Positions 10,508 through 24,698 of a DNA stretch of 64,000 bases are shown in pieces; within the stretch, counting starts at the first letter, position 1; every line of letters starts with the position of its first letter. The DNA comes from Bradyrhizobium erythrophlei (GTDB taxonomy: Bacteria; Pseudomonadota; Alphaproteobacteria; Rhizobiales; Xanthobacteraceae): the NCBI RefSeq assembly GCF_900142985.1, contig NZ_LT670849.1, positions 2,418,001 to 2,482,000 on the forward strand, read 5' to 3'. The translations under genes were made by a program, and so were the position numbers. Below the pieces are notes generated by a model. It was not told where the DNA came from and ran no database searches. It saw only the letters and a program-made list of their open reading frames with translations.

Positions 10508-11311
10508 TTACTGCTGCTTTATTTCCGGAGCCGGTGCTGCCGCGGCAAAGGCCTGTTCAAAAACCGCAAGGTCAGTGCTCGGCAAATCGCACACCGCGAC
10601 ATAGGTGAAGTTGCCGTCGCTCCAGCTTCGGACGTTGTAGCCAGCGATGTTCTGGTCGGGCACAGACTGCCCCCGCTTCAACGTCGTGAGGCTCACGGTG
10701 TGAGCCGCATGCTTGTAGACGATCGTTGCCACCGGACGATTATCGATCACATCGACCCGGCCACCCAACAGAGCGAAACCCTGTTCGGCGAGGTCCGGCA
10801 CCTGAGGGGATTCCGGCAGCCGCGAGGTGAACCACGGCTTGACGGTGTGACGGTCGGAAGATGCAATATCGAACGGCTGCGGCGCCAGCAGCCCGCGGAT
10901 ATGGCCGGCGACCACTTCGCTCGCGACGGTGTCGTCCTGACTGAGGCGATCGATCGTCTTCAGCACGGAGCCGGAGATCACGGCGCCGAACACGGCGGAT
11001 GCCGCCAGCGCCTGGAACGACCAATTCCGGCGGCGCAGAACGGTGACGTTGCTGACCGCGTTCGCGCGCTCAACGCCGGCCTGCTCCGTATTCAACCTGG
11101 CCTGAATGCGCGCCTGCAAGTCCGAGGGCATGTCGGCCTGCGGGAGCGCCTGCATCGCGTTCCGCAGCGACATCAGACGTGTATATCGAGCCTGCAACTT
11201 GTCATCGGCCGCCATCCGGCGCTCGAATTCGCCTGCGGCAACGGGATCGAGCTCGCCATCGCAATAGGCGGTCAACTTGAGCTCGTCGTTATCTTGCAAG
11301 GACGCGGCCAT
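10508..11311 (-). CDS. Transmembrane anti-sigma factor
   Basis: A 267-residue protein. Residues about 1-75 form a helical anti-sigma domain (LTAYCDGELDPVAAGEFERRM), followed by one membrane helix (about 97-117, FQALAASAVFGAVISGSVL) and a periplasmic domain of about 140 residues. It would hold the ECF sigma factor encoded 2 bases upstream until an envelope signal releases it. The lone Cys17 and lack of a HxxxCxxC motif mean it is not a canonical zinc anti-sigma. The start ATG (11309-11311) lies 2 bases after the sigma stop, so the two are cotranscribed. Confidence 0.82.
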   Translation of the reverse strand: MAASLQDNDELKLTAYCDGELDPVAAGEFERRMAADDKLQARYTRLMSLRNAMQALPQADMPSDLQARIQARLNTEQAGVERANAVSNVTVLRRRNWSFQALAASAVFGAVISGSVLKTIDRLSQDDTVASEVVAGHIRGLLAPQPFDIASSDRHTVKPWFTSRLPESPQVPDLAEQGFALLGGRVDVIDNRPVATIVYKHAAHTVSLTTLKRGQSVPDQNIAGYNVRSWSDGNFTYVAVCDLPSTDLAVFEQAFAAAAPAPEIKQQ

Positions 11312-11313
11312 AA

Positions 11314-11922
11314 TTACTCTTGATCTCCGAGAAGCGCGATCAGCAGCTGCCTTCCGCGCGACAGACGGGACATGACAGTGCCGATGGGAACATTGGTAAT
11401 CTCGGCAATATCGCGATAGTTCATCTGATTGATTTCCCGCAAAACCAGCACTTCACGAAACTGGGTCGGCAACTGCGCCAAGGCCTTCTGAAGCCGCTCC
11501 GCATCTGCCTTTAAAAGAACCGTCTCCTCCGGTGTCTCTATTCTCGCTCCGTGCAGTCCTTCGTGTTCGAGCTCCTGCTGCTCCGACGGGTTAAGGTCGT
11601 TGATATAGGTGACTTTCCTCGACCGGTTCTTCGTCAGCCAACTCAGAGCCGTATTGCGTACAATGGTCAGCGACCATGCGCGGGCATTGACGGCCCCGAA
11701 ACCCCTTATGCCGCGAAACGCCCGGATGGCGGCTTCCTGCACGATGTCCTCGGCGTCCGACGCATTGCCGGAAAGCCACTGCGCGAGGCGGTAGGCCTCG
11801 GGCAGATACGGCAGGAAAATCTCGTCAAAGGTGTTTCTATCATCCTTGTTTTGCACAACGGAGACCGGCATTTGCGACTGGCCAGACACTCGATCTGAGC
11901 CTTCCGGCCGGTCTTTTAGCAT
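11314..11922 (-). CDS. ECF-type RNA polymerase sigma factor
   Basis: A sigma-70-family factor with only regions 2 and 4. Sigma-2 is about ASDAEDIVQEAAIRAFR and RAWSLTIVRNTALSWL; sigma-4 is LAQLPTQFREVLVLREI ... IAEITNVPIGTVMSRLSRG. The reading frame stays open to 12033, but that extension lies in a palindromic repeat and is probably not translated. I chose ATG 11922 (MLKDRPEGSD); ATG 11871 (MPVSVVQNK) and GTG 11889 are alternatives, and no strong ribosome site decides. It is cotranscribed with the anti-sigma gene. Targets may include the cupredoxin and metallophosphoesterase genes just upstream on the same strand, as inferred from context. Confidence 0.85.
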   Translation of the reverse strand: MLKDRPEGSDRVSGQSQMPVSVVQNKDDRNTFDEIFLPYLPEAYRLAQWLSGNASDAEDIVQEAAIRAFRGIRGFGAVNARAWSLTIVRNTALSWLTKNRSRKVTYINDLNPSEQQELEHEGLHGARIETPEETVLLKADAERLQKALAQLPTQFREVLVLREINQMNYRDIAEITNVPIGTVMSRLSRGRQLLIALLGDQE

Positions 11923-11972
11923 GTCGTTTTTAAGTTCGGTACACTGGAAACCGGTCCGGTGCGCCATAGAAG

Positions 11973-12138
11973 AGCGGATTTGACCTTCACTTCCCATCCC
12001 ATCAGGAGTCTCGAATGCGAAGGTCAAATCCAAAACTCCGCTAGCCGAAATTCAGGTTTTCTGGTGGTCCGATTACTCCAACATTCGCAAAAGGTGCCCG
12101 CTGAGAAGGGACGCGAAAGTCTGAATCGGACCACCAGA
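11973..12138. repeat. Double-hairpin intergenic element
   Basis: Two inverted repeats in tandem: GGATTTGACCTTC (11976-11988) with GAAGGTCAAATCC (12019-12031), then CTGGTGGTCCGATT (12061-12074) with AATCGGACCACCAG (12124-12137). The two-hairpin plan and total size (about 166 bases) mirror the elements at 6133 and 50656 although the arm sequences differ. It separates the cupredoxin stop from the sigma gene and creates a spurious N-terminal extension of the sigma reading frame. Confidence 0.55.
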
Positions 12139-13628: not shown

Positions 13629-13666
13629 TTGGGCCGGGATGGTTAAAGGCCACCGCCCAAACGAAA

Positions 13667-13693
13667 TGGGGGAGCGGAAATTCCGCTCCCCCA
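13667..13693. terminator. Strong hairpin terminator of porin 1
   Basis: A perfect 13-base inverted repeat (TGGGGGAGCGGAA / TTCCGCTCCCCCA) with a one-base centre, 30 bases past the leftward porin stop. On the leftward transcript the stem is followed by a short T-rich stretch (TTTCGTTT). It could also stop rightward transcription. Confidence 0.8.
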
Positions 13694-13722
13694 CAACAAC
13701 TTAAGCCTGGTTCTGGTCTAGC

Positions 13723-15474
13723 TTAGAACTGGTAGCGGAGACCAATGCCCGGGTCGAAGGTCGAGACCGTGGTCTTGACGTTGGTACCAGTCAGAGTGCC
13801 GTTCTGGTTGGACTGAACGAAGGCAGCGGCCAGACCGCCATTGCGCTGCGAGTAGGCAACGCCGGCGTAGAAGTCGACGTGACGGGCGAACCGCCAATCG
13901 AGGGCGATGCCGAACATGTCTTCGCCGCCGGCGCAGTTGGTCGCGATGGCGCTGTTGGCAGCGCAAGCGGCCTGTTGGCCGGCTGTGGTCGCACCAAAGC
14001 CGCCGTTGTTGGCAAGAGCGCCGCCCGGAGTGTTGGCGAACAGCGTACCAGCACCGGTACCCGCAGCAGCACCCTGCGTGAAGAAGTGCTGACGGAAGCC
14101 GTAGTAAGAGGCAGCGATATCGAGCGCGGGTGTGATCGAATACTTCACGCCTGCCCAGAAGACGTCGAAGTGGCCGTCCGTCACGTAGTTGTTGTTGTTG
14201 GCGAAGCCGAGCGCATAGCCACCGAGGACGTTGGCACCCGCGGTCAACGGATTATCCGGGTTGGACTTGTTGATGAACTCGTAGCCACCATAGAATTTCC
14301 AGGGGCCGATCGTGTAACGAGCGGCGATCTGGAAGTTGGTGTTGTCGGAGACGGTACCCGGCAAGCAGCCCAGGTTGCAGGCGATGGTTCCCGTGCCCGC
14401 GAAGCCAGCAGGACCCAAAGTACCCAGCTGGTTGGCGGCAATCGCGTTCACCTGCGCCGTGCTCAGAGGACCACCCGAGAACGACACGGACTGGAAGATC
14501 TTGCCGCCGACAGCGTCCATCGACAGGCCCATATAGTCGAAGCCGATGTTGCCCTGGAAGGCGTTGCCGATACTGCTGTTGTTGCCGTCGCGGAGCTGCG
14601 TCAAAGCCGCCAACCGCACCGGGCCGATGTTCAGACGATATTCAAAGGAGTTGTTGAAGATACGGTTTTCGGTGTTGCCAGCGCCGCCGGTCGCACCTTC
14701 GTTGGTGATCAGCGACCACATGTTCGAACCGGACAGCGCGTCATAGTTGACGACGAGGTCCGAGCTCAGAGCCGACTGACGGCCCATGGTGAGGGTACCG
14801 TAGGTCGGCGAACTGATACCGAAGTAGGCCGCGTTGTTGAACATCTGGCCGGCCTTCGACGAGTCGCCGTAGGCGTTCGCGGTGCCCAGTGTGTTGGCAT
14901 TGCCGAGGCCGTTGTTCTGCACGATCGCGCCGATGCCGTTGGCGTTCGCGCCGCTCGCCGGGTTGAACAGGGTCTGCAAGTTGAACACGGCGTACAGATT
15001 GTCGCCGATCTCCTGCTTGCCGCGCAGACCGATGAACGAGGTGCTCAGCATGTTCGGAGTAGCACCGAACTGCGCACCGTTCCCCGCCTTTTCCATCGGA
15101 GCGTTCTGCGGGAAGCCGGCCAACGGCGAGAATGCGTTGCCATGCTGGAAGTAGGCGACGCCCATATCGAAGTTGCCGTAAACGCAGACGCCCTTGATGC
15201 AGATGTCGTCGTTCTCGACCGGCCTGGCCTTGACCGCGGCCTTGTAGGGCAGGTCGGCGGCCATCGCGTCGACCGGGCTGATGGTCGGCACGGCAGACTT
15301 CTGAGCTTCGAGCGCCTTCTGACGCTTTTCGATGTCGGCGAGACGCTTGGTCATCGCCGCATTCTGTTCACGCAGTTGCTTGGCCTGGGCCTGGATATCG
15401 GTCAGCTCGTCGGCGTGAGCCGCGGTCGCTGCGAAAGCCAGGATGGCCGCTGCTGAGATAAAAGTCCTTTTCAC
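13723..15474 (-). CDS. Outer-membrane porin, paralogue 1 of 5
   Basis: A 583-residue outer-membrane channel. Signal peptide (KRTFISAAAILAFAATAAHA, cleaved near residue 21) is followed by a coiled-coil segment (about 23-62, heptads in IQAQAKQLREQNAAM), a Pro-rich linker (VPTISPVDAMAADLPYK), then a beta-barrel of general-porin type with YGTLTMGRQSALSSD and terminal ...GIGLRYQF, the C-terminal Phe used for barrel insertion. Start is GTG at 15474 with GGGGGA six bases ahead, as in all five paralogues. Six cysteines occur in three close pairs (DICIKGVC, CNLGC, AAC...NC), unusual for porins. Own terminator and leader make it an independent transcription unit. Confidence 0.93.
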   Translation of the reverse strand: MKRTFISAAAILAFAATAAHADELTDIQAQAKQLREQNAAMTKRLADIEKRQKALEAQKSAVPTISPVDAMAADLPYKAAVKARPVENDDICIKGVCVYGNFDMGVAYFQHGNAFSPLAGFPQNAPMEKAGNGAQFGATPNMLSTSFIGLRGKQEIGDNLYAVFNLQTLFNPASGANANGIGAIVQNNGLGNANTLGTANAYGDSSKAGQMFNNAAYFGISSPTYGTLTMGRQSALSSDLVVNYDALSGSNMWSLITNEGATGGAGNTENRIFNNSFEYRLNIGPVRLAALTQLRDGNNSSIGNAFQGNIGFDYMGLSMDAVGGKIFQSVSFSGGPLSTAQVNAIAANQLGTLGPAGFAGTGTIACNLGCLPGTVSDNTNFQIAARYTIGPWKFYGGYEFINKSNPDNPLTAGANVLGGYALGFANNNNYVTDGHFDVFWAGVKYSITPALDIAASYYGFRQHFFTQGAAAGTGAGTLFANTPGGALANNGGFGATTAGQQAACAANSAIATNCAGGEDMFGIALDWRFARHVDFYAGVAYSQRNGGLAAAFVQSNQNGTLTGTNVKTTVSTFDPGIGLRYQF

Positions 15475-15608
15475 GTAAGGTCCCCCACAATAGACGCGGC
15501 AACAACCATACGCCGCGAGCTGCCTGGTTACGGAGCCTCGGATGAGGACTCCTTAGGCAGACACTCTGCGTCAGGGGGCAAAGAAATACTGTAACCCAAA
15601 CGCCACAG
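15475..15608 (-). promoter_or_regulatory. Porin 1 leader: dyad, two hairpins, ribosome site
   Basis: In transcript order: dyad CTGTG-N10-TACAG (15608-15589); 36 bases; hairpin A (15552-15532, GGAG-CCTC stem, four-base loop); hairpin B (15517-15495, CGCGGC ... GCCGCG around a GGTTGTT loop); then GGGGGA and the GTG start. The same order and spacing precede the four other porins. The 435-base interval 15475-15909 also holds a perfect 9-base hairpin at 15627-15648 (TTTGAAAGG-N4-CCTTTCAAA) and the two porin 2 hairpins; no gene is seen in it. Confidence 0.65.
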
Positions 15609-15760
15609 CCGGCCACGAAGCCATCTTTTGAAAGGATCGCCTTTCAAAGGAGTTGGCCCTGTTGCCGCTATGACACACTGGGTTGTTTATCTAAAGTAAA
15701 GCTGTGGTCCTATTACAACTATTGATTGTTTCCTTTCGAGACTTTTTGAGGTTGAAAGCG

Positions 15761-15780
15761 GGCTCCGATTCCTCGGAGCC
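15761..15780. terminator. Second hairpin downstream of porin 2
   Basis: Perfect 8-base stem GGCTCCGA-TTCC-TCGGAGCC, about 65 bases beyond the first porin 2 hairpin on the leftward transcript. This is a probable back-up terminator. Confidence 0.5.
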
Positions 15781-15845
15781 GCCTTCGGTGGTTTTCAGGC
15801 CAGAGAATCGGCCGACCCATTTGCGAGAGCCGATTGACTGGTGGG

Positions 15846-15892
15846 AGACGGAGACATCTTAAGCCTTTGATTCAACCTAGATATCTCCGTCT
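15846..15892. terminator. Porin 2 terminator hairpin
   Basis: Arms AGACGGAGACATCT and AGATATCTCCGTCT (one mismatch) enclose a 19-base AT-rich loop, starting 18 bases after the leftward porin 2 stop. It shares the GAGACAT core with the terminators of porins 3-5. Confidence 0.65.
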
Positions 15893-15909
15893 GTGTCGTT
15901 ACGCCTCCA

Positions 15910-17655
15910 TCAGAACTGGTAGCGGAGACCAACGCCCGGGTTCCACGAAGAGACCGTGGTGGCGCAGGTGGCGCAGATGCCCGAGACACCGACAGTCGTT
16001 CCCGTGGTGGTCGTGGCGAGGCCGTTGTTGTTGGAGGTCGCGAAGCCGTTGGCCAGGCCACCGTTTCGCTGCGAGTAGGCGACGCCGGCGAACACGTCGA
16101 CGTGACGGGCAAAGCGCCAATCGACGACGAGGCTGACCATGTCTTCGCCGCCGTTGCAGTTCGACTGCGACGCACTGTTGGCGGCGCAAGCGGCCTGCTG
16201 AGCAGCAACGCTACCCAAGTTCGCAGCACCACCGGGCGTGTTGGCGAATACCGCCGTGCCGGGAGATGCACCCTGCTGGAAGAAGTGCTGCCGGATGCCG
16301 TAGTACGAACCGATGATGTCCAACGCCGGCGTGATCGCATACTTCACGCCCACCCAGAACGCATCCTGATTACGGGTGCTCAGGTAGTTGTTGTTGTTCA
16401 CGTAGGCGAGGTTATAGCCGCCTTGCGCGAAAGCGCCGGGCGAGAGCGGATTGTTCGGATTGTCGAACCAGAGATGTTCGTATCCGCCGTAGAACTTCCA
16501 GGGGCCGATCGTGTAGCGAGCGGCGATCTGGAAGATCGTGTCGTCGGAGATCGTGCCGCTCATGCAGCCGAGCGAGCAGGTGATGGCGGTGCCGGTGATC
16601 GGGTTGGTGCCGGTGGACTGCGAAGTCGTAAGGGCACCGACCTGGCTCGAGCTCAAGGGCGCACCGACGGAAAGGGCGTCGTAGACCTTGCCGCCAACGA
16701 CGTCCATCGAGAAGCCCATGTAGTCGAAGCCGACATCGCCCAGGAAAGCATTGCCGGTTGCGCTGTTGCCGCCGTTGCGCAGCTGAGCTTCCGCCGCCAA
16801 GCGCACCGGGCCGACGTTCAGGCGATACTCATACGAGTTATCGAGAATTCGGTTTTCGGTCACGCCACCGCCGCCGGTTGCACCTTCATAGGTGATCAGC
16901 GACCAGGCATTCGAACCCGACAGCGCGTCATAGTTGACGACGAGGTCCGAGGTCAGGGACGACTGACGGCCCATGGTGAAGGTGCCGTAGGTCGGCGAAC
17001 TGATACCGAAGTAAGCCGCGTTGTTGAACAACTGACCGCCCTTCGACGAGTCGCCATAGGCGTTCGTCAGGGTGCCGATCGTCGTAGCGCCGCCCAGGCC
17101 GTTGTTCTGGACGAGCGAGCCGGTGCCGTTGGCGTTCATGCCGCTGGCGGGGTTGAACAAGGTCTGCAAGTTGAACACGGCGTACAGATTGTCGCCGATC
17201 TCCTGCTTGCCGCGCAGACCGATGAACGAGGTGCTCATCAGGTTGGCCGCGACGCCGGAATACGAGCCGCTCGAGTTCTTCTGGATCGCGTAGTCCAGCG
17301 GACCGCCGGCAAACGCGCTGTACGGAGCGCCATGCGTCTGCGACGCGAAGCCCATATCGAAGTTGCCGTAAACGCAGATGCCCTTGACGCAGATGTCGTC
17401 GTTCTCGACCGGCTTGGCCTTGACCGCCGCCTTGTAGGGCAGATCGGCAGCCATCGCGTCCACCGGACTGATGGTAGGCACGGCTTTCTGTTGCGCCTCC
17501 AGCGCCTTTTGCCGCTTTTCGAGATCAGCAAGACGCTTGGTCATCTGTTCACGAAGTTGCTTGGCCTGCGCCTGGACGTCCGTCAGCTCGTCGGCGTGAG
17601 CCGCAGGCGCTGCGAAAGCCAGGATGGCCGCTGCTGTGATGAAAGTCCTCTTCAC
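15910..17655 (-). CDS. Outer-membrane porin, paralogue 2 of 5
   Basis: A 581-residue porin with the family plan: signal peptide (KRTFITAAAILAFAAPAAHA), shorter coiled coil (LREQMTKRLADLEKRQKALEAQ), ISPVDAMAADLPYKAA linker, barrel with YGTFTMGRQSSLTSD, terminal VGLRYQF. The frame is open to 17685, but GTG at 17655 is chosen because it aligns with the paralogues and has GGGGGA five bases upstream. Eight cysteines occur in four close pairs (DICVKGIC, CSLGC, AAC...NC, and CATC just before the last strand). The mature part is highly similar to paralogues 3 and 4, implying recent duplication. Confidence 0.93.
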   Translation of the reverse strand: MKRTFITAAAILAFAAPAAHADELTDVQAQAKQLREQMTKRLADLEKRQKALEAQQKAVPTISPVDAMAADLPYKAAVKAKPVENDDICVKGICVYGNFDMGFASQTHGAPYSAFAGGPLDYAIQKNSSGSYSGVAANLMSTSFIGLRGKQEIGDNLYAVFNLQTLFNPASGMNANGTGSLVQNNGLGGATTIGTLTNAYGDSSKGGQLFNNAAYFGISSPTYGTFTMGRQSSLTSDLVVNYDALSGSNAWSLITYEGATGGGGVTENRILDNSYEYRLNVGPVRLAAEAQLRNGGNSATGNAFLGDVGFDYMGFSMDVVGGKVYDALSVGAPLSSSQVGALTTSQSTGTNPITGTAITCSLGCMSGTISDDTIFQIAARYTIGPWKFYGGYEHLWFDNPNNPLSPGAFAQGGYNLAYVNNNNYLSTRNQDAFWVGVKYAITPALDIIGSYYGIRQHFFQQGASPGTAVFANTPGGAANLGSVAAQQAACAANSASQSNCNGGEDMVSLVVDWRFARHVDVFAGVAYSQRNGGLANGFATSNNNGLATTTTGTTVGVSGICATCATTVSSWNPGVGLRYQF

Positions 17656-17786
17656 GTAAATCCCCCAAAATAGGCGCGGCAACAACCATCGCCGCGAACT
17701 GCCTGGTTACGGAGCTTCGAACGAAGACTCCTTGGGCAGCCTTGTGCCTTAGGGGGGAAATAAATGCTGTGTCCGACTGACAACAG
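17656..17786 (-). promoter_or_regulatory. Porin 2 leader: dyad, two hairpins, ribosome site
   Basis: Dyad at 17786-17767 (one arm CTGTG, the other CTGTT), hairpin A at 17731-17711, hairpin B at 17696-17675, then GGGGGA and GTG. In hairpin A a C-G pair of the other copies is replaced by U-A on both sides (CUUC/GAAG instead of CCUC/GAGG), so the pairing is preserved. Between this leader and the porin 3 terminator (17787-17977) the sequence is AT-rich, with GTCATGTGA twice (about 17814 and 17847), and no gene is seen. Confidence 0.65.
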
Positions 17787-17977
17787 TAATATTGGAAGCC
17801 GACAGGACTGACGGTCATGTGATGTTGGCGTAATATATGATAACCGTCATGTGACATCTGGTAACTCGTGCATTTCAGATACGTGATTGAAGTTCAAATC
17901 CAGATCGCGAATCCGTGAATCTCCGTGAGATGGCGTTACAATTCGATCATCATCAGAAGTGAGCCTGGAGAGAAAAG

Positions 17978-18027
17978 GCAGAGACATCGCGAACCGCGTT
18001 GGGGGAACGTGGATCGGATGTCTCTGC
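17978..18027. terminator. Porin 3 terminator (conserved palindrome)
   Basis: Arms GCAGAGACATC and GATGTCTCTGC flank an inner GAACCGCGTTGGGGGAACGTG-like core. Near-identical structures follow porins 4 and 5. Confidence 0.65.
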
Positions 18028-18059
18028 ATTTGTGCTTGTGTCCTTACGTTACGAGATCA

Positions 18060-19823
18060 TTAGAACTGGTAGCGGAGACCAACGCCGGGATCCCAGGTCG
18101 AGACACGGTTGTTCACGTTGCAGGTACCGCCTCCTGTGCCGCAACCGGCGGCACTGAGAGTGCCGTTGTTGGTCGCTGTGACGAAGCCGCCGGCCAGACC
18201 GCCGTTACGCTGCGAGTAGGCGACGCCGGCGTAGAAGTCGACGTGCTTGGCAAACCGCCAGTCGAGCACCAAGCCAACCATGTCTTCGCCGCCGGCGCAG
18301 TTGGTCTGCGACGCGCTATTGGCGGCGCAAGCTGCCTGCTGAGCCGCGAGGCTGCCGAGGTTGAGCGCACCACCGGGAACGCTGGAAAATACGGCAGTAC
18401 CAAGGCCCGTTGCCGAGCCGGGTGCGGCACCCTGCGCGAAGAAGTGTTGCCGGATGCCATAGTACGAAGCGGCGATATCCAGGGTCGGCGTGATCGAATA
18501 CTTCGCGCCAACCCAGAACACGTCCTGGTTACGGTTCGTCACGTAGTTGTTGTTATTGACGAAGGCGATGCCGTAGCCGCCGATCGCATTGGCACCGGGC
18601 TGTAGCGGGTTGTTCGGGTTGGAGAACTGGAGGTGCTCGTATCCGCCGTACAGTTTCCACGGTCCGATCACGTATCGCGCACCGACACTGAACACGGTGT
18701 TGTCGGAGACGATACCCGACACACAGCCGAGCGAGCAGGGGATGGTGTATCCGACGCTAGTCCCGGTCGCAGACGCCTGGTTGGCAGAGATAGCGGCAAC
18801 TTGTCCGGAGGTCAGGGTCGTTCCGATGGAGTTTTGGTCGTAGATTTTGCCGCCGAGGAAGTCCATCGACAGTCCCTGGTAGTCGAAGCCGATGTCGCCC
18901 TCGAAGGCATTGCCGACGGAGCTGTTGTTGCCGTTGCGCAGTTGCGCTTCCGCCGCCAACCGCACCGGGCCGATGTTCAGACGATACTCATAGGAGTTGT
19001 CGTAGATGCGGTTTTCCGTCACGCCGCCACCGCCGGTGGCGCCTTCGTTGGTGATCAGCGACCAGGCGTTCGAACCGGACAGCGCGTCATAGTTGACGAC
19101 GAGGTCCGAGCTCAGAGCCGACTGACGGCCCATGGTGAAGGTACCGTAGGTCGGCGAACTGACGCCGAAGTAGGCCGCGTTGTTGAACATCTGGCCGGCC
19201 TTCGACGAGTCGCCGTAAGCGTTGGCGAGCGTACCAAGCTGCGGAGACTGGCCGAGGCCGTTGTTCTGCACGATGGCGCCGATGCCGTTGGCGTTCTGAC
19301 CCGAGGCCGGGTTGAACAGGGTCTGCAAATTGAACACGGCGTAGAGATTGTCAGCGATCTCCTGCTTGCCGCGCAGACCGATGAACGAGGTGCTGAGCTG
19401 GTTCGGCGTCGCAATGAACTGCGACCCGAAGCTCGACTTTTCGATCGGCGTGTTCGCCGGGAAGCCGGCCAACGGCGAGGACGCGTTGCCGTGCTGCTGC
19501 CAGTTCAGGCCCATATCGAAGTTGCCGTAGACGCAAATGCCCTTGATGCAGATGTCGTCGTTCTCGACCGGCTTGGCCTTGACCGCTGCCTTGTAGGGCA
19601 GATCGGCAGCCATCGCGTCCACCGGACTGATGGTAGGCACGGCGGCCTTCTGCGCTTCGAGCGCCTTCTGCCGCTTTTCGATATCGGCGAGACGCTTGGT
19701 CATCGCCGCGTTCTGTTCGCGAAGTTGCTTGGCCTGAGTCTGGATATCTGTGAGCTCATCGGCGTGAGCCGCGGTCGCTGCGAAAGCCAGAATGGCCGCT
19801 GCTGAGATGAAAGTCCTTTTCAC
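18060..19823 (-). CDS. Outer-membrane porin, paralogue 3 of 5
   Basis: A 587-residue porin, same architecture as its neighbours: signal peptide ending AAHA, long coiled coil (TQAKQLREQNAAMTKRLADI), linker, barrel with YGTFTMGRQSALSSD and terminal VGLRYQF. GTG at 19823 is preferred over the open upstream frame to 19853 by alignment with paralogues and the GGGGGA site. Eight cysteines occur in four close pairs (DICIKGIC, CSLGC, AAC...NC, CGTGGGTC). It is closest to paralogue 1 in the N-terminal half and to paralogue 4 in the C-terminal half by eye. Confidence 0.93.
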   Translation of the reverse strand: MKRTFISAAAILAFAATAAHADELTDIQTQAKQLREQNAAMTKRLADIEKRQKALEAQKAAVPTISPVDAMAADLPYKAAVKAKPVENDDICIKGICVYGNFDMGLNWQQHGNASSPLAGFPANTPIEKSSFGSQFIATPNQLSTSFIGLRGKQEIADNLYAVFNLQTLFNPASGQNANGIGAIVQNNGLGQSPQLGTLANAYGDSSKAGQMFNNAAYFGVSSPTYGTFTMGRQSALSSDLVVNYDALSGSNAWSLITNEGATGGGGVTENRIYDNSYEYRLNIGPVRLAAEAQLRNGNNSSVGNAFEGDIGFDYQGLSMDFLGGKIYDQNSIGTTLTSGQVAAISANQASATGTSVGYTIPCSLGCVSGIVSDNTVFSVGARYVIGPWKLYGGYEHLQFSNPNNPLQPGANAIGGYGIAFVNNNNYVTNRNQDVFWVGAKYSITPTLDIAASYYGIRQHFFAQGAAPGSATGLGTAVFSSVPGGALNLGSLAAQQAACAANSASQTNCAGGEDMVGLVLDWRFAKHVDFYAGVAYSQRNGGLAGGFVTATNNGTLSAAGCGTGGGTCNVNNRVSTWDPGVGLRYQF

Positions 19824-19954
19824 GTGAGTCCCCCAAAATAGGTGCGGCAACAACCATCGCCGCGAACCGCCTGGTTACGGAGCCTCGGATGAGATCTCCT
19901 TGGGACTGCTTGTGCCTCAGCAAAAGAAGAAATGCTGTGACAGCATCGCCACAG
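19824..19954 (-). promoter_or_regulatory. Porin 3 leader: dyad, two hairpins, ribosome site
   Basis: Perfect dyad CTGTG-N10-CACAG (19954-19935), hairpin A (19899-19879, with one C-G pair replaced by a U-G wobble), hairpin B (19863-19844), GGGGGA and GTG. Upstream (19981-20038) lie GTCATGTGA, the palindrome ATCATATGAT (19999-20008) and a direct repeat ACATATGATTG (20014-20024 and 20028-20038), possible regulator sites. No gene is seen in 19824-20230. Confidence 0.65.
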
Positions 19955-20145
19955 AAATATCGGAAGCCGACAATGTCACCGTCATGTGAGTTACTGATAT
20001 CATATGATGTATGACATATGATTGATAACATATGATTGGATCCTGTAGCCGCGCTTGGTTCTTCTGTTCGAGCCCGTCTATTGTCTCAACGTATTTTTGC
20101 TCTCGCCCATTTCCACCGCATCCACGCGCCGGTGCCGACGATAAG

Positions 20146-20197
20146 AGACAGAGACATCATGAACCGCGTGAGGGGCGTGGATCAGATGTCTCTGTCT
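20146..20197. terminator. Porin 4 terminator (conserved palindrome)
   Basis: Arms AGACAGAGACATC and GATGTCTCTGTCT (13 bases, perfect) enclose a GAACCGCGTGAGGGGCGTGG core. It begins about 33 bases after the leftward porin 4 stop. Confidence 0.7.
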
Positions 20198-20230
20198 TTC
20201 GTGCTTTTGAGTCCTTGCGCTACGCGCTCA

Positions 20231-21955
20231 TCAGAACTGGTAACGAAGACCGATGCCGGGATCGAAAGTCGAGACCCGGGTAGCGCAGGTAGCGCAGATG
20301 CCGGTGACGGTATTGGTGGTGTTCTGGCCGTTGTTGGTCGAAGTGACGAAGCCGGAAGCCAGACCGCCGTTACGCTGCGAGTAGCCAACGCCGGCATAGA
20401 GGTCGACGTGCCGGGCGAACCGCCAGTCGAAGACAACGCTGACCATGTCTTCACCGCCGGCGCAGTTGGTTTGCGACGCGCTGTTGGCGGCGCAAGCGGC
20501 TTGCTGTTGAGCAACGCTACCCAGGTTCAGAAGACCACCCGGAGCGTTGGCGAACGCCGTCGCGCCAGGAGCAGCACCCTGGGTGAAGAATTCCTGCCGG
20601 ACTCCGTAGTAGGAGGCAGCAACATCCAACGTCGGGGTGATCGAGTATTTCGCGCCAACCCAGAACACATGCTGGTTGCGGGTGCTGACGTAGTTGTTGT
20701 TGTTCACGAAAGCGAGGTTATAGCCACCCTGAGCGAAGGCGCCGGGAGTGAGCGGGTTGTTCGGATTGTCGAACGCGAGGTGTTCGTATCCACCAAAGAA
20801 CTTCCAGGGGCCGATCGTGTAGCGAGCGGCAACCGCAAACACAGTGTTGTCGGAGATGGTGCCGCTCAGACAGCCCAGCGAACATCCGATCGCGCCGCCG
20901 AACGGGTTGACGACTGTGCCGGCCTGGTTGCTGGTCAGAGCGTTGACCTGCGCCGTGCTCAAGGTCGTTGCAACGGAGTTTGCGTCGTAGATCTTGCCGC
21001 CGACGAAGTCCATCGACAGGCCCATGTAGTCGAAGCCGACATTGCCTTCGAAGGCATTGCCGGTCGGGCTGTTGCCGCCGTTACGCAGTTGCGCTTCAGC
21101 CGCCAAGCGCACCGGGCCGATGTTCAGACGATACTCATATGAGTTGTCGTAGATGCGGTCTTCGGTGACGCCCCCGCCGCCGGTGGCGCCTTCGAAGGTG
21201 ATCAGCGACCAGGCGTTCGAGCCGGACAGCGCGTCATAGTTGACGACGAGGTCAGAGGTCAGAGCCGACTGGCGACCCATGGTGAAGGTACCATAGGTCG
21301 GCGAACTGACGCCGAAATAGGCCGCGTTGTTGAACATCTGGCCACCCTTCGACGAGTCGCCATAGGCGTTCGCCTGACCGAGCGACGTAGCCGCGCCCAG
21401 ACCGTTGTTCTGCACGATGGCGCCGACACCGTTGGCGTTCATGCCGCTGGCCGGGTTGAACAGGGTCTGCAAGTTGAACACGGCGTACAGATTGTCGCCG
21501 ATCTCCTGCTTGCCGCGCAGACCGATGAACGAGGTGCTGAGCTGGTTGGCCGCGACGCCGCCATACGAACCGTTGGACTGTTTTTCGATCAAGTAATTCA
21601 GCGGACCGCCGGCAAACGCGTTGAACGGGTTGCCGTGTTGATTGTAGCTGAGGCCCATGTCGAAGTTGCCGTAGACGCAAATGCCCTTGACGCAGATGTC
21701 GTCATTCTCGACCGGCTTGGCCTTGACCGCTGCCTTGTAAGGCAGGTCGGCAGCCATCGCGTCCACCGGACTGATGGTGGGCACAGCCTTCTGTTGCGCC
21801 TCGAGTGCCTTTTGCCGCTTTTCGAGATCGGCAAGACGCTTGCTCATCTGTTCGCGAAGTTGCTTGGCCTGAGCCTGGACGTCCGAAAGCTCGTCGGCGT
21901 GAGCTGTCGCGGCGAAAGCCAGGACGGCTACTGCGGAGATAAAAGTCCTTTTCAC
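20231..21955 (-). CDS. Outer-membrane porin, paralogue 4 of 5
   Basis: A 574-residue porin. Signal peptide (KRTFISAVAVLAFAATAHA), coiled coil (SDVQAQAKQLREQMSKRLADL), linker, barrel with YGTFTMGRQSALTSD, terminal IGLRYQF. GTG start at 21955 with GGGGGA. Eight cysteines in four close pairs (DICVKGIC, CSLGC, AAC...NC, CATC). Its signal peptide and coiled coil are nearly the same as in paralogue 5, while the barrel is closest to paralogue 2, a mosaic pattern suggesting recombination among the copies. Confidence 0.93.
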   Translation of the reverse strand: MKRTFISAVAVLAFAATAHADELSDVQAQAKQLREQMSKRLADLEKRQKALEAQQKAVPTISPVDAMAADLPYKAAVKAKPVENDDICVKGICVYGNFDMGLSYNQHGNPFNAFAGGPLNYLIEKQSNGSYGGVAANQLSTSFIGLRGKQEIGDNLYAVFNLQTLFNPASGMNANGVGAIVQNNGLGAATSLGQANAYGDSSKGGQMFNNAAYFGVSSPTYGTFTMGRQSALTSDLVVNYDALSGSNAWSLITFEGATGGGGVTEDRIYDNSYEYRLNIGPVRLAAEAQLRNGGNSPTGNAFEGNVGFDYMGLSMDFVGGKIYDANSVATTLSTAQVNALTSNQAGTVVNPFGGAIGCSLGCLSGTISDNTVFAVAARYTIGPWKFFGGYEHLAFDNPNNPLTPGAFAQGGYNLAFVNNNNYVSTRNQHVFWVGAKYSITPTLDVAASYYGVRQEFFTQGAAPGATAFANAPGGLLNLGSVAQQQAACAANSASQTNCAGGEDMVSVVFDWRFARHVDLYAGVGYSQRNGGLASGFVTSTNNGQNTTNTVTGICATCATRVSTFDPGIGLRYQF

Positions 21956-22090
21956 GTAAGGTCCCCCAAAATAGGCGCGGCAACAACCATGCGCCGCGGA
22001 CTGCTAAAGGTACGGAGCCTCGGATGAGGACTCCTACGTGAATGATCCTGCATCACCTCGTTTGGAAATGTTGTCACTCGAACGCAACAA
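21956..22090 (-). promoter_or_regulatory. Porin 4 leader: degenerate dyad, two hairpins, ribosome site
   Basis: The dyad is changed in both arms but still symmetric (TTGTC-N10-AACAA, 22090-22071). Hairpin A (22034-22014), hairpin B (21998-21976), GGGGGA and GTG are conserved. The interval 21956-22433 holds, beyond this, an AT-rich tract (22100-22210) with no recognisable gene, then the porin 5 terminator. Confidence 0.6.
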
Positions 22091-22367
22091 CGCATTGATT
22101 AGCTGACGTAAATTCATAATATGATTTTTATAATATAAAGCGGCTTTCGATATCTGAAAATCGGTTTAGAAAACCTGCGGCAATCGAAAGTTACTCAAAA
22201 ATTTTTTATGAAAGTTCCAGACGGTTTCATATCAGCGGCTATCTTCTCCTGGCTCACGCGAAGTCCGGCATCCAGTTCTCGCGCGACGCTCAGCCGATAT
22301 CTGCTGCGTGACATCCGTTTCAGGAGTGCCGAAGCCTTGTGGCCAAGAGGCAGCCTCGACGCAAAAA

Positions 22368-22418
22368 AACAGAGACATCGCGAACCGCGTGGGGGAACGC
22401 GGGCCGGATGTCTCTGTT
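22368..22418. terminator. Porin 5 terminator (conserved palindrome)
   Basis: Arms AACAGAGACATC and GATGTCTCTGTT (12 bases, perfect) around GAACCGCGTGGGGGAACGCG, whose inner CCGCGT/ACGCGG can also pair. It starts 16 bases after the leftward stop. Confidence 0.7.
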
Positions 22419-22433
22419 CTTCAGGCTTCTAGA

Positions 22434-24065
22434 TCAGAACTGGTAGCGAATGCCGATGCCCGGATCGTAGGACGAGGCTTTGCCGCCCGCCTGATTGATC
22501 GTGCCGTTGTTGTTGCCGTTCGCCTGAAGGAATCCATTGGCGAGGCCGTTCTGCACCTGCGACCACATCACGCCCGCGTACATGTCGACGTGCCTGGCGA
22601 AGCGCCAGTCGACCATCAACGAAACGGCGTCCAGCGAACCGGAGCACTTGGAGGACCGTGCATCGGTACAACCTGCAACCGGACCAAAGTTCGTGCCGCC
22701 GGAGACAGCATTTCCGTCGGCCGCGCCACCGAAGCTGTTCTGCCACTCGTGGTAATAGGCGCCTGCGATATCGAGGTTCGGCGTGATCGAATACTTCACG
22801 CCGATCCAGCCGGTCTGAAGCACCCTCTCGTTGGTGAAGTTGGCGTTGTTGATCGCGCCGCCGTTGCCGAGGATGAAGCCGCCGGTAACGAACGCACCGG
22901 GAGCGAGCGGGTTGTTCGGATTGGCGAAGTGGACGTTCTCGTAGCCGCCGTAGAACTTCCACGGACCGATGACGTATTTGGCGCCGACCTGGAATACGGT
23001 GTTGTCGGAGACAGTCCCCGCGATGATGCCGTTGCCGTTGCTTACCGTGTTGATCGACGCGGCGAGTTGGGCTTGTGACAGAGGCGCGGCAGATACGGCG
23101 TCGTAGATCTTGCCGCCGAGGAAGTCGATCGACAAGCCCATATAATCGAAGCCAATGTTGCCTTCGAACGCGTTGCCGGTCGAGCTGTTGCCGCCGTTAC
23201 GAAGCTGAGCTTCCGCCGCCAACCGCACCGGACCGATGTTCAGACGATATTCGTACGAGTTGTCGAACACGCGATCCTCGGTGTCGCCGCCACCGCCGTT
23301 CGCGCCCTGGAAAGTGAGCAGCGAGAAGGCGTTTGCACCCGAGAGCGCATCATAGTTGGTGACGAGATCGGAGCTCAGCGCCGACTGGCGTCCCATCGTG
23401 AAGGTACCGTAGGTCGGCGAACTGATACCAAAGTAAGCCGCCTGGTTGAACAGCTGGCCAGCCTTGGACGAGTCCTGGAACGAGTTCTGGAATCCCAGAT
23501 TCGTCGTCAAACCGTTGTTCTGGGCAATGCCGCCGATGCCGTTGGCGTTCATGCCGCTCGCGGGATCGAAGATCGTCTGCAAGTTGAACACCGCGTACAG
23601 ATTGTCGGCGATTTCCTGCTTGCCGCGCAGACCGATGAACGAGCTGCTCGCCTGGTTCGATCCGACGCCGAAATAGGAGCCGTTCGAGTTCTTCGAAATC
23701 AGATAGTTCAGCGGCGGATTGCCGAGCGCATTGAGCGGCGCACCGTGCTGGATATACGACACGCCCATGTCGAAGTTGCCGTAGACGCAGATGCCCTTGA
23801 TGCAGATATCGTCGTTCTCGGCCGGCTTGGCCTTGACCGCTGCCTTGTAGGGCAAGTCGGCCGCCATTGCGTCCACCGGACTGATGGTCGGCACGGCTTT
23901 CTGTTGCGCCTCGAGTGCCTTTTGCCGCTTTTCGAGATCAGCAAGACGCTTGCCCATCTGATCGCGAAGTTGCTTGGCCTGAGCCTGGACGTCCGAAAGC
24001 TCATCGGCGTGCGCTGTCGCGGCGAAAGCCAGGACGGCTACTGCTGAGATGAATGTCTTCTTCAC
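22434..24065 (-). CDS. Outer-membrane porin, paralogue 5 of 5 (most diverged)
   Basis: A 543-residue porin, the shortest and most diverged of the five but with the same signal peptide (KKTFISAVAVLAFAATAHA), coiled coil, ISPVDAMAADLPYKAA linker, YGTFTMGRQSALSSD barrel motif and terminal IGIRYQF. GTG start at 24065 behind GGGGAA. It lacks the CxLGC pair of the other four and keeps four cysteines (DICIKGIC and a loop pair around GCTDARSSKC). Loop sequences differ most, so its selectivity may differ. Upstream-most member of the array. Confidence 0.93.
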   Translation of the reverse strand: MKKTFISAVAVLAFAATAHADELSDVQAQAKQLRDQMGKRLADLEKRQKALEAQQKAVPTISPVDAMAADLPYKAAVKAKPAENDDICIKGICVYGNFDMGVSYIQHGAPLNALGNPPLNYLISKNSNGSYFGVGSNQASSSFIGLRGKQEIADNLYAVFNLQTIFDPASGMNANGIGGIAQNNGLTTNLGFQNSFQDSSKAGQLFNQAAYFGISSPTYGTFTMGRQSALSSDLVTNYDALSGANAFSLLTFQGANGGGGDTEDRVFDNSYEYRLNIGPVRLAAEAQLRNGGNSSTGNAFEGNIGFDYMGLSIDFLGGKIYDAVSAAPLSQAQLAASINTVSNGNGIIAGTVSDNTVFQVGAKYVIGPWKFYGGYENVHFANPNNPLAPGAFVTGGFILGNGGAINNANFTNERVLQTGWIGVKYSITPNLDIAGAYYHEWQNSFGGAADGNAVSGGTNFGPVAGCTDARSSKCSGSLDAVSLMVDWRFARHVDMYAGVMWSQVQNGLANGFLQANGNNNGTINQAGGKASSYDPGIGIRYQF

Positions 24066-24197
24066 TTAAGTTCCCCAACAAAATGCAGCAAAGAATTCTT
24101 GCCGCGAAGTGTCCGAATGCGGAGCCTCGGATGAGGACTCCTTGCGGCGGCCTTCTGCCGTAGGGAACGAACAAATGCTGTGTCGACCTCGCCACAG
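24066..24197 (-). promoter_or_regulatory. Porin 5 leader: dyad, two hairpins, ribosome site
   Basis: Perfect dyad CTGTG-N10-CACAG (24197-24178), 36 bases, hairpin A (24141-24121), hairpin B (24105-24085, loop replaced by GAATTC sequence but GCGGC/GCTGC stem kept), GGGGAA and GTG. The long interval 24066-24698 further holds a small hairpin CGGCAT-GTG-ATGCCG (24255-24269) and, at 24600-24615, a T-arm-like GCGGG-N6-CCCGC. No gene is supported between 24198 and 24698. Confidence 0.62.
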
Positions 24198-24698
24198 CGA
24201 TGCTGCAAGGCGACAAAAATACGCGTATGTGATTGAAGATTTCTACATGATGAACGGCATGTGATGCCGAATCATTCCCATGTCATCCGCCGTGATTTCA
24301 ACCGTCACATTTGCGTCATTCGCAAGCGCACTTTGCCGATGGCAGTCGAGATGTTAGAGCCGCGTGAACGACACGTCCGCCGTCACACAAATGAAAAATA
24401 TCTCGCCAGGTCGAACCTGCGAGATCCAAGATCTCTCCATACCTATTCGGAATCGAATGTGACGAGCGCATTGTCGCCGGCCGGCGCCTCGATGACCCGC
24501 GACGCACGCGCCCCCTCGGCGCCGCATGACTCAAGCGCACAGCCGGGTCCCTCATAACTTCATAAAAAAGACGACCAGCCATGAGCGGCTGACGGAGCAG
24601 CGGGTCAAATCCCGCCTTGCCGACCCAAGGCAAAAGCCGCATGCTCGCCGCAACAATGACGCCGGACCAAAATTTCCGGCCACAAGGGGGAAATGACC

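Follow-up and report, generated by a model that had tools for sequence, protein, structure and literature searches.

What do the recurrent leaders in front of a tandem array of porin genes do, and do they act as RNA or as DNA? The window analysed here, a stretch of 64,000 nucleotides (nt) from contig NZ_LT670849.1 (positions 2,418,001 to 2,482,000) of the 7.5 Mb genome of Bradyrhizobium erythrophlei, carries five such genes on its minus strand, each with a leader that opens with a dyad and, after a gap of 35-36 bases, continues with hairpins A and B, a linker and the Shine-Dalgarno sequence GGGG(G)A before a GTG start. The original prediction had taken this arrangement for an RNA that acts in cis, is conserved with base changes that keep the pairing and belongs to no described family, combined with a common operator. 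The RNA leader was borne out, with covariation that is moderate once hand-aligned rows are set aside. Hairpin A is under selection, the leader was found in one porin clade in a few Bradyrhizobium species, and its action might resemble that of the ompA and rnd leaders of E. coli.

Direct reading confirmed hairpin A in all five leaders of the window, always with the layout GGAG-N-4 nt, a 4-nt loop and 4 nt-CUCC, the bulge being one-sided. Hairpin B, the GTG start and the Shine-Dalgarno sequence (GGGGGA, except for GGGGA in porin 5) were likewise present in five of five, at the near-fixed spacing that had been claimed. The pair-keeping changes in hairpin A were also found as described (U-A for C-G on both sides in porin 2, a U-G wobble in porin 3), and hairpin B of porin 5 keeps its stem with another loop, with one G-U pair and the outermost pair lost. 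For the dyad the claim stood in part: its position in front of each porin is constant, but the exact CTGTG-N10-CACAG occurs only in porins 3 and 5. The features are as follows.

15532..15552, minus strand: porin 1 hairpin A
15495..15517, minus strand: porin 1 hairpin B
15482..15494, minus strand: porin 1 linker UCUAUUGU and Shine-Dalgarno GGGGG
15589..15608, minus strand: porin 1 dyad, CTGTG-N10-TACAG, possible operator or third hairpin
13723..15474, minus strand: porin 1, GTG start at 15474, porin family by homologues
17711..17731, minus strand: porin 2 hairpin A, U-A replacing C-G
17675..17696, minus strand: porin 2 hairpin B, terminator-like in scan
17662..17674, minus strand: porin 2 linker CCUAUUUU and Shine-Dalgarno GGGGG
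17767..17786, minus strand: porin 2 dyad, CTGTT-N10-CACAG
15910..17655, minus strand: porin 2, GTG start at 17655
19879..19899, minus strand: porin 3 hairpin A, U-G wobble
19844..19863, minus strand: porin 3 hairpin B, terminator-like in scan
19830..19843, minus strand: porin 3 linker ACCUAUUUU and Shine-Dalgarno GGGGG
19935..19954, minus strand: porin 3 dyad, exact CTGTG-N10-CACAG
18060..19823, minus strand: porin 3, GTG start at 19823, porin family by homologues
22014..22034, minus strand: porin 4 hairpin A
21976..21998, minus strand: porin 4 hairpin B
21963..21975, minus strand: porin 4 linker CCUAUUUU and Shine-Dalgarno GGGGG
22071..22090, minus strand: porin 4 dyad, TTGTT-N10-GACAA
20231..21955, minus strand: porin 4, GTG start at 21955
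24121..24141, minus strand: porin 5 hairpin A
24085..24105, minus strand: porin 5 hairpin B, different loop, G-U in stem, terminator-like in scan
24073..24084, minus strand: porin 5 linker AUUUUGUU and Shine-Dalgarno GGGG
24178..24197, minus strand: porin 5 dyad, exact CTGTG-N10-CACAG
22434..24065, minus strand: porin 5, GTG start at 24065

Mean identity over the ten pairs of window leaders was 0.89 for hairpin A, against 0.64 at fourfold-degenerate sites and 0.46 in the spacer, in agreement with the earlier remark that the spacer is far less conserved. The corresponding values were 0.83, 0.58 and 0.46 for 55 pairs of 11 genes, and 0.83 for hairpin A against 0.56 at fourfold sites for 30 cross-species pairs, the 11 leaders having been chosen from 20 for a GGAG-type hairpin A, which biases these wider figures, but not that of the window, upward. 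Selection on the sequence is clearest for hairpin A because the leader downstream of it (identity 0.74 in the window, 0.62 overall) lies near the fourfold level. The hairpin A loop contains RUYC, as judged by eye, in 17 of 18 cases including those in which the stem has been exchanged, the exception being AGCC in dw46.

The pairing itself was examined in alignments of two kinds. Alignment A4, which comprises 15 leaders and was built without structure, showed double-sided changes in 4 of 14 pairs against 1.1 after shuffling (5 of 500 shuffles reached this), and 88.1% of its cells were paired against 84.9%, a value that none of the 500 shuffles reached. In a hand-made structural alignment of 20 leaders, 7 of the 14 pairs showed such changes, where a tree-based null, which was home-made and is not R-scape, gave 2.3 (p about 0.001); without three leaders whose arms had been shifted by hand 3 pairs remained against 1.2 (p 0.02-0.05), and without six leaders pairing stood at p 0.002 and double changes at p 0.07. 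Whole stems have been exchanged as well: in L052, from a metagenome-assembled genome, hairpin A is swapped for GGCGUCCC-GUCC-GGGACGCC with the stem and the loop type kept, and in G230 hairpin B is swapped for GCCCGGC-GUGCAA-GCCGGGC. Folded from just upstream of hairpin A, all five window leaders form hairpins A and B in the minimum free energy or centroid structure, as is expected of ompA-type stem-loops. Hairpin A was assessed for its probability of forming in 17 leaders and exceeded 0.5 in 15 of them. Folding z-scores of the five single leaders ranged from -1.4 to -3.4, each modest alone (23, 6, 0, 15 and 12 of 200 shuffles folded as well). For hairpin A we favour an RNA over a DNA operator because of its wobble pairs and one-sided bulge.

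How widely the leader occurs was assessed with two covariance models, R1 from the five window leaders and R2 from 15 leaders. Over its whole own genome R1 found only the five window leaders and L021, which belongs to the same porin family, together with a weak match, L022, that was recovered by R2; a further porin paralogue in this genome, L020, was without the leader. The wider search covered 265 genomes of the genus, presumed to be Bradyrhizobium on the ground that leaders in these genomes agree letter for letter with named Bradyrhizobium records (which is also why G032 is equated with Bradyrhizobium sp. dw_411), and the large searches ran under stricter speed filters, so that weak members may be missed. 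Relatives of the porin are scarce in the genus: at E 1e-70 or better, 11 of the 265 genomes have one. With R2, 7 of the 265 genomes yielded 19 strong matches at E 2e-8 or better (seven in the own genome, four in G032, two each in G187, G231 and G232, one each in G031 and G230), 15 of which had been in its training set, the additional ones being L021, G187b, G231b and G232:C205. Gene starts were read for 18 of the 19, the last, G232:C205, lying at a contig end, and all 18 precede this porin clade, with G231b assigned by its signal peptide only.

Weaker matches add little to this picture. Two further G032 leaders match R2 weakly (E 2e-4 and 0.002), and matches of the weak class only (E about 1e-4 to 0.1) were found in 51 of the 265 genomes within the genus and in 29 of 391 genomes drawn from the family outside it (best E 7e-5). 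Of 33 weak loci inspected, one is a member and 28 (9 outside the genus, 19 within) revealed by eye no gene start resembling that of a porin; of the four that were not readable in this set, L066 and L067 were read separately. Three more weak matches lie in other sequence. A comparison with the leaders of another porin type ended where a relative was found in only 2 of 80 genomes. Rfam 15 gave no match over the whole window, and over 15400-24300 only two chance-level matches, neither within a leader and neither reaching its gathering threshold. Among the open-licence papers listed by the literature searches, none had a title or abstract opening that dealt with the leader, which is weak evidence of absence, and the accessible part of a paper on Bradyrhizobium RNAs (PMC5082802) mentions a porin once, in its reference list.

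Two other loci deserve mention. In G032 four porins that carry this leader form a tandem array of their own (C5:66561-72751; L032, L035, L037 and L039), and three of its four linkers have UUACUC in place of the U run before the Shine-Dalgarno sequence. An orphan leader (L125:1480-1540; G053:C1:2181303-2181387), with one mismatch in hairpin A, is separated by about 680 nt from a different porin downstream, and between the two lies a small, unrelated open reading frame on the opposite strand; it is a remnant, or perhaps a free-standing RNA.

A common operator is unproven because the dyad is inexact, is missing or unseeable in 6 of 20 leaders, and can also be read as an RNA hairpin; it could be either an operator or a third hairpin. 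It was found in 14 of the 20 leaders, none being seen by eye in L021, L022, dw_L055, G031 and G230, and the G232 contig ends before its position. The looser pattern TGTNNC-N6-GNNACA fits four of the five window dyads (not that of porin 2), with five sites in the window against 0.5 expected, and a second such site lies about 50 bases upstream of the porin 1 dyad (window 15660-15677). As RNA the two arms are able to pair, in several places through G-U. More cells are paired than under the null (p 0.03), and covariation was seen at pair position 5 (p 0.008), but the numbers of double changes did not reach significance (p 0.22 and 0.43). This signal may derive from one inherited leader subtype, to which most U-G cases may belong. 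As a genome-wide operator the dyad was uninformative, since a search of the own genome with a TGTKGCNNNNNNGNNACA-like pattern gave 14 sites, four of them before these porins, and the reversed control gave 6. No canonical promoter was recognised. Upstream of the G031 porin (L043) there is no CTGTG dyad but another inverted repeat, ATCACGTT...AACGTGAT; the control region has changed there while hairpins A and B stayed. TCAYATGA motifs, possible response-regulator sites, lie upstream of the porin 2 and 3 dyads (window 17815-17854 and 19982-20007), and inspection by eye shows comparable motifs at porin 5; the window has nine matches (palindromes counted on both strands; five here) against 2.4 expected, and 1 of 100 shuffles had as many.

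What, then, might the leader do? The reading that we put first, tentatively and at somewhat less than even odds, is that of a lineage-restricted 5' untranslated region (UTR) that acts in the manner of ompA and rnd in E. coli, protecting the mRNA and aiding its translation. Each gene would then form a unit in which a promoter region is followed by the structured 5' UTR, about 78 nt long or longer, by the porin with its GTG start and by a 3' hairpin; hairpins A and B would shield the 5' part of the messenger from RNase E-type decay, the U-rich linker would assist 30S/S1 loading, and the conserved hairpin A loop would be read by a putative factor common to all copies, the outcome being strong production of an abundant porin from each copy. 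We infer stabilisation and start-site loading as the likeliest role because of the analogy with these two leaders. In the rnd leader, which Zhang and Deutscher (1992) reportedly described as a U-rich translation enhancer, a terminator-like stem-loop precedes the U-rich stretch, and in ompA it is enough that some stable hairpin stands close to the 5' end, unlike the sequence-conserved hairpin A of the porins. The ompA 5' UTR likewise belongs to the mRNA of an outer-membrane protein and has stem-loops upstream of the Shine-Dalgarno sequence; stem-loop protection and a long-lived transcript are described in the accessible part of PMC7509114, and by analogy the same would be expected of the porin messengers. 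No sequence homology to ompA is claimed. U-rich, S1-linked enhancers including rnd are described in the accessible parts of PMC7769764 and PMC2176067; rnd and the porin leaders share a non-AUG start and, for most of the latter, a U-rich stretch upstream of the Shine-Dalgarno sequence, but the porin leaders have two hairpins. Their linkers are 6-12 nt long with a mean U fraction of 0.63 (20 leaders), and U4 or longer, the feature checked for an rnd-type U run directly upstream of the Shine-Dalgarno sequence, is present in only 15 of the 20.

Several observations weigh against this reading. Further pair types in A4 showed no excess (8 against 8.5 shuffled), the RNAalifold covariation term on the same alignment was +0.07, that is, none, and without the hand-aligned leaders covariation in double changes reached only p 0.02-0.07. 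L021 and dw_L055 are without hairpin A, and dw_L054 has lost the stem of hairpin B; in a 150-nt context hairpin B had a probability above 0.5 in only 12 of 20 leaders and of 0.04 in porin 1. Five linkers are without U4: three among the four tandem copies of G032, and those of G031 and porin 1. The Shine-Dalgarno sequence is predicted to be as paired as in shuffles, which gives no sign of a specially open start site, and an ompA-type stabiliser alone leaves the sequence conservation of hairpin A unexplained.

A factor acting in trans is the main rival, or perhaps an addition, to the stabilising and loading role. Hairpin A might bind a specific small RNA or RNA-binding protein that moves all copies together, a possibility that is less likely but a serious one, in keeping with conservation above synonymous sites and with the RUYC loop that persists on exchanged stems; no partner was found, although no genome-wide partner test was made, and an antisense match of 15 nt immediately upstream of the array is, by estimate, no longer than chance would give. 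More doubtful is a narrower form in which a putative dedicated RNA or protein reads hairpin A and controls the tandem array through the duplicated leader cassette, the dyad being a third hairpin. That hairpin B and the U tract form an intrinsic terminator before the start site, making the leader a transcription attenuator or the source of a 5'-UTR-derived small RNA, seems unlikely: a scan lists hairpin B as terminator-like in three of the five leaders (the region has 15 sites of this kind, shuffles 10.2) and some relatives have U7-U8 linkers, but a U tract is not a feature of all members, a quarter of the linkers being without U4, and no conserved competing structure was seen.

We regard it as improbable that the elements act as DNA, as operator or promoter sequences transcribed incidentally or never. 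The fixed position of the dyad and the conserved sequence of hairpin A would suit such a role, but the bulge and G-U pairs of hairpin A break DNA symmetry while keeping RNA pairing, stems are swapped with pairing retained, and the location beside the start site suits a 5' UTR. Structured 5' UTRs are known from Bradyrhizobium as ROSE-type RNA thermometers, from which the porin leaders differ in having no conserved Shine-Dalgarno pairing and no Rfam match. An RNA thermometer or riboswitch, in which an upstream strand pairs with the Shine-Dalgarno sequence and closes a junction over hairpins A and B, is very improbable here; a C-rich upstream strand is predicted to pair in this way in porins 2, 3 and 5 and in some relatives including some G032 copies, but over 18 leaders cognate duplexes had no significant advantage over swapped ones (p 0.097), over 20 leaders the unpaired share of the Shine-Dalgarno sequence was 0.25, with 0.24 for shuffles (p 0.78), and the pairing partners vary between leaders. 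The thermometer suggested in the original prediction is accordingly not supported, start-site pairing being neither conserved nor above shuffles, and long-range sequestration by the C-rich strand was rejected on the swapped-duplex and shuffle controls, no conserved helix being found. Hardly credible is a functionless relic of recent duplication, which would fit the tandem paralogues, the likeness of the porin 1-4 leaders and the region 3' of hairpin A with its conservation not far above that of fourfold sites, but not hairpin A, which exceeds these sites in the same pairs and across species. A short upstream open reading frame from the hairpin B loop, ending on the porin start in porins 1 and 4 by eye, is not kept in the others and was dropped.

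A structured leader with covariation support that is absent from Rfam 15 is now added to porin mRNAs, in a group related to soil and symbiotic bacteria. One genome offers several natural copies of a single RNA cassette, five in the window and two weaker ones elsewhere, and their differences in hairpin, linker and dyad are separable, so that both the role of the leader and the question of a shared factor are practical to test.

The five window porins are 65-81% identical to each other over aligned positions. Their label derives from homologues (PF13609 in 39 of the best 120 of 978 relatives, many of them named 'predicted porin'); searches of the window proteins against Pfam, NCBIfam and solved structures matched no porin family. 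A strong hairpin follows each gene, with GAGACATC / GATGTCTC-type stems in four of the five (porins 2-5), and the 3' end of a G187 porin has a similar one.

13666..13694, minus strand: terminator-like hairpin 3' of porin 1
15846..15892, minus strand: long hairpin 3' of porin 2, no U run
17978..18027, minus strand: long hairpin 3' of porin 3, then UUUU after two C
20146..20197, minus strand: long hairpin 3' of porin 4, no clear U run
22369..22417, minus strand: long hairpin 3' of porin 5, then U run

To judge by this sequence layout, each porin gene probably forms one transcription unit, a qualified statement because a clear U run follows only porin 5 and, after two C, porin 3, and because among the porin 3' hairpins the terminator scan of the coding strand lists only that of porin 1. 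Downstream of the array, on the same strand, lie genes for an extracytoplasmic function (ECF) sigma factor and an anti-sigma-like protein (window 10508-12033), adjoined by cupredoxin and metallophosphoesterase genes.

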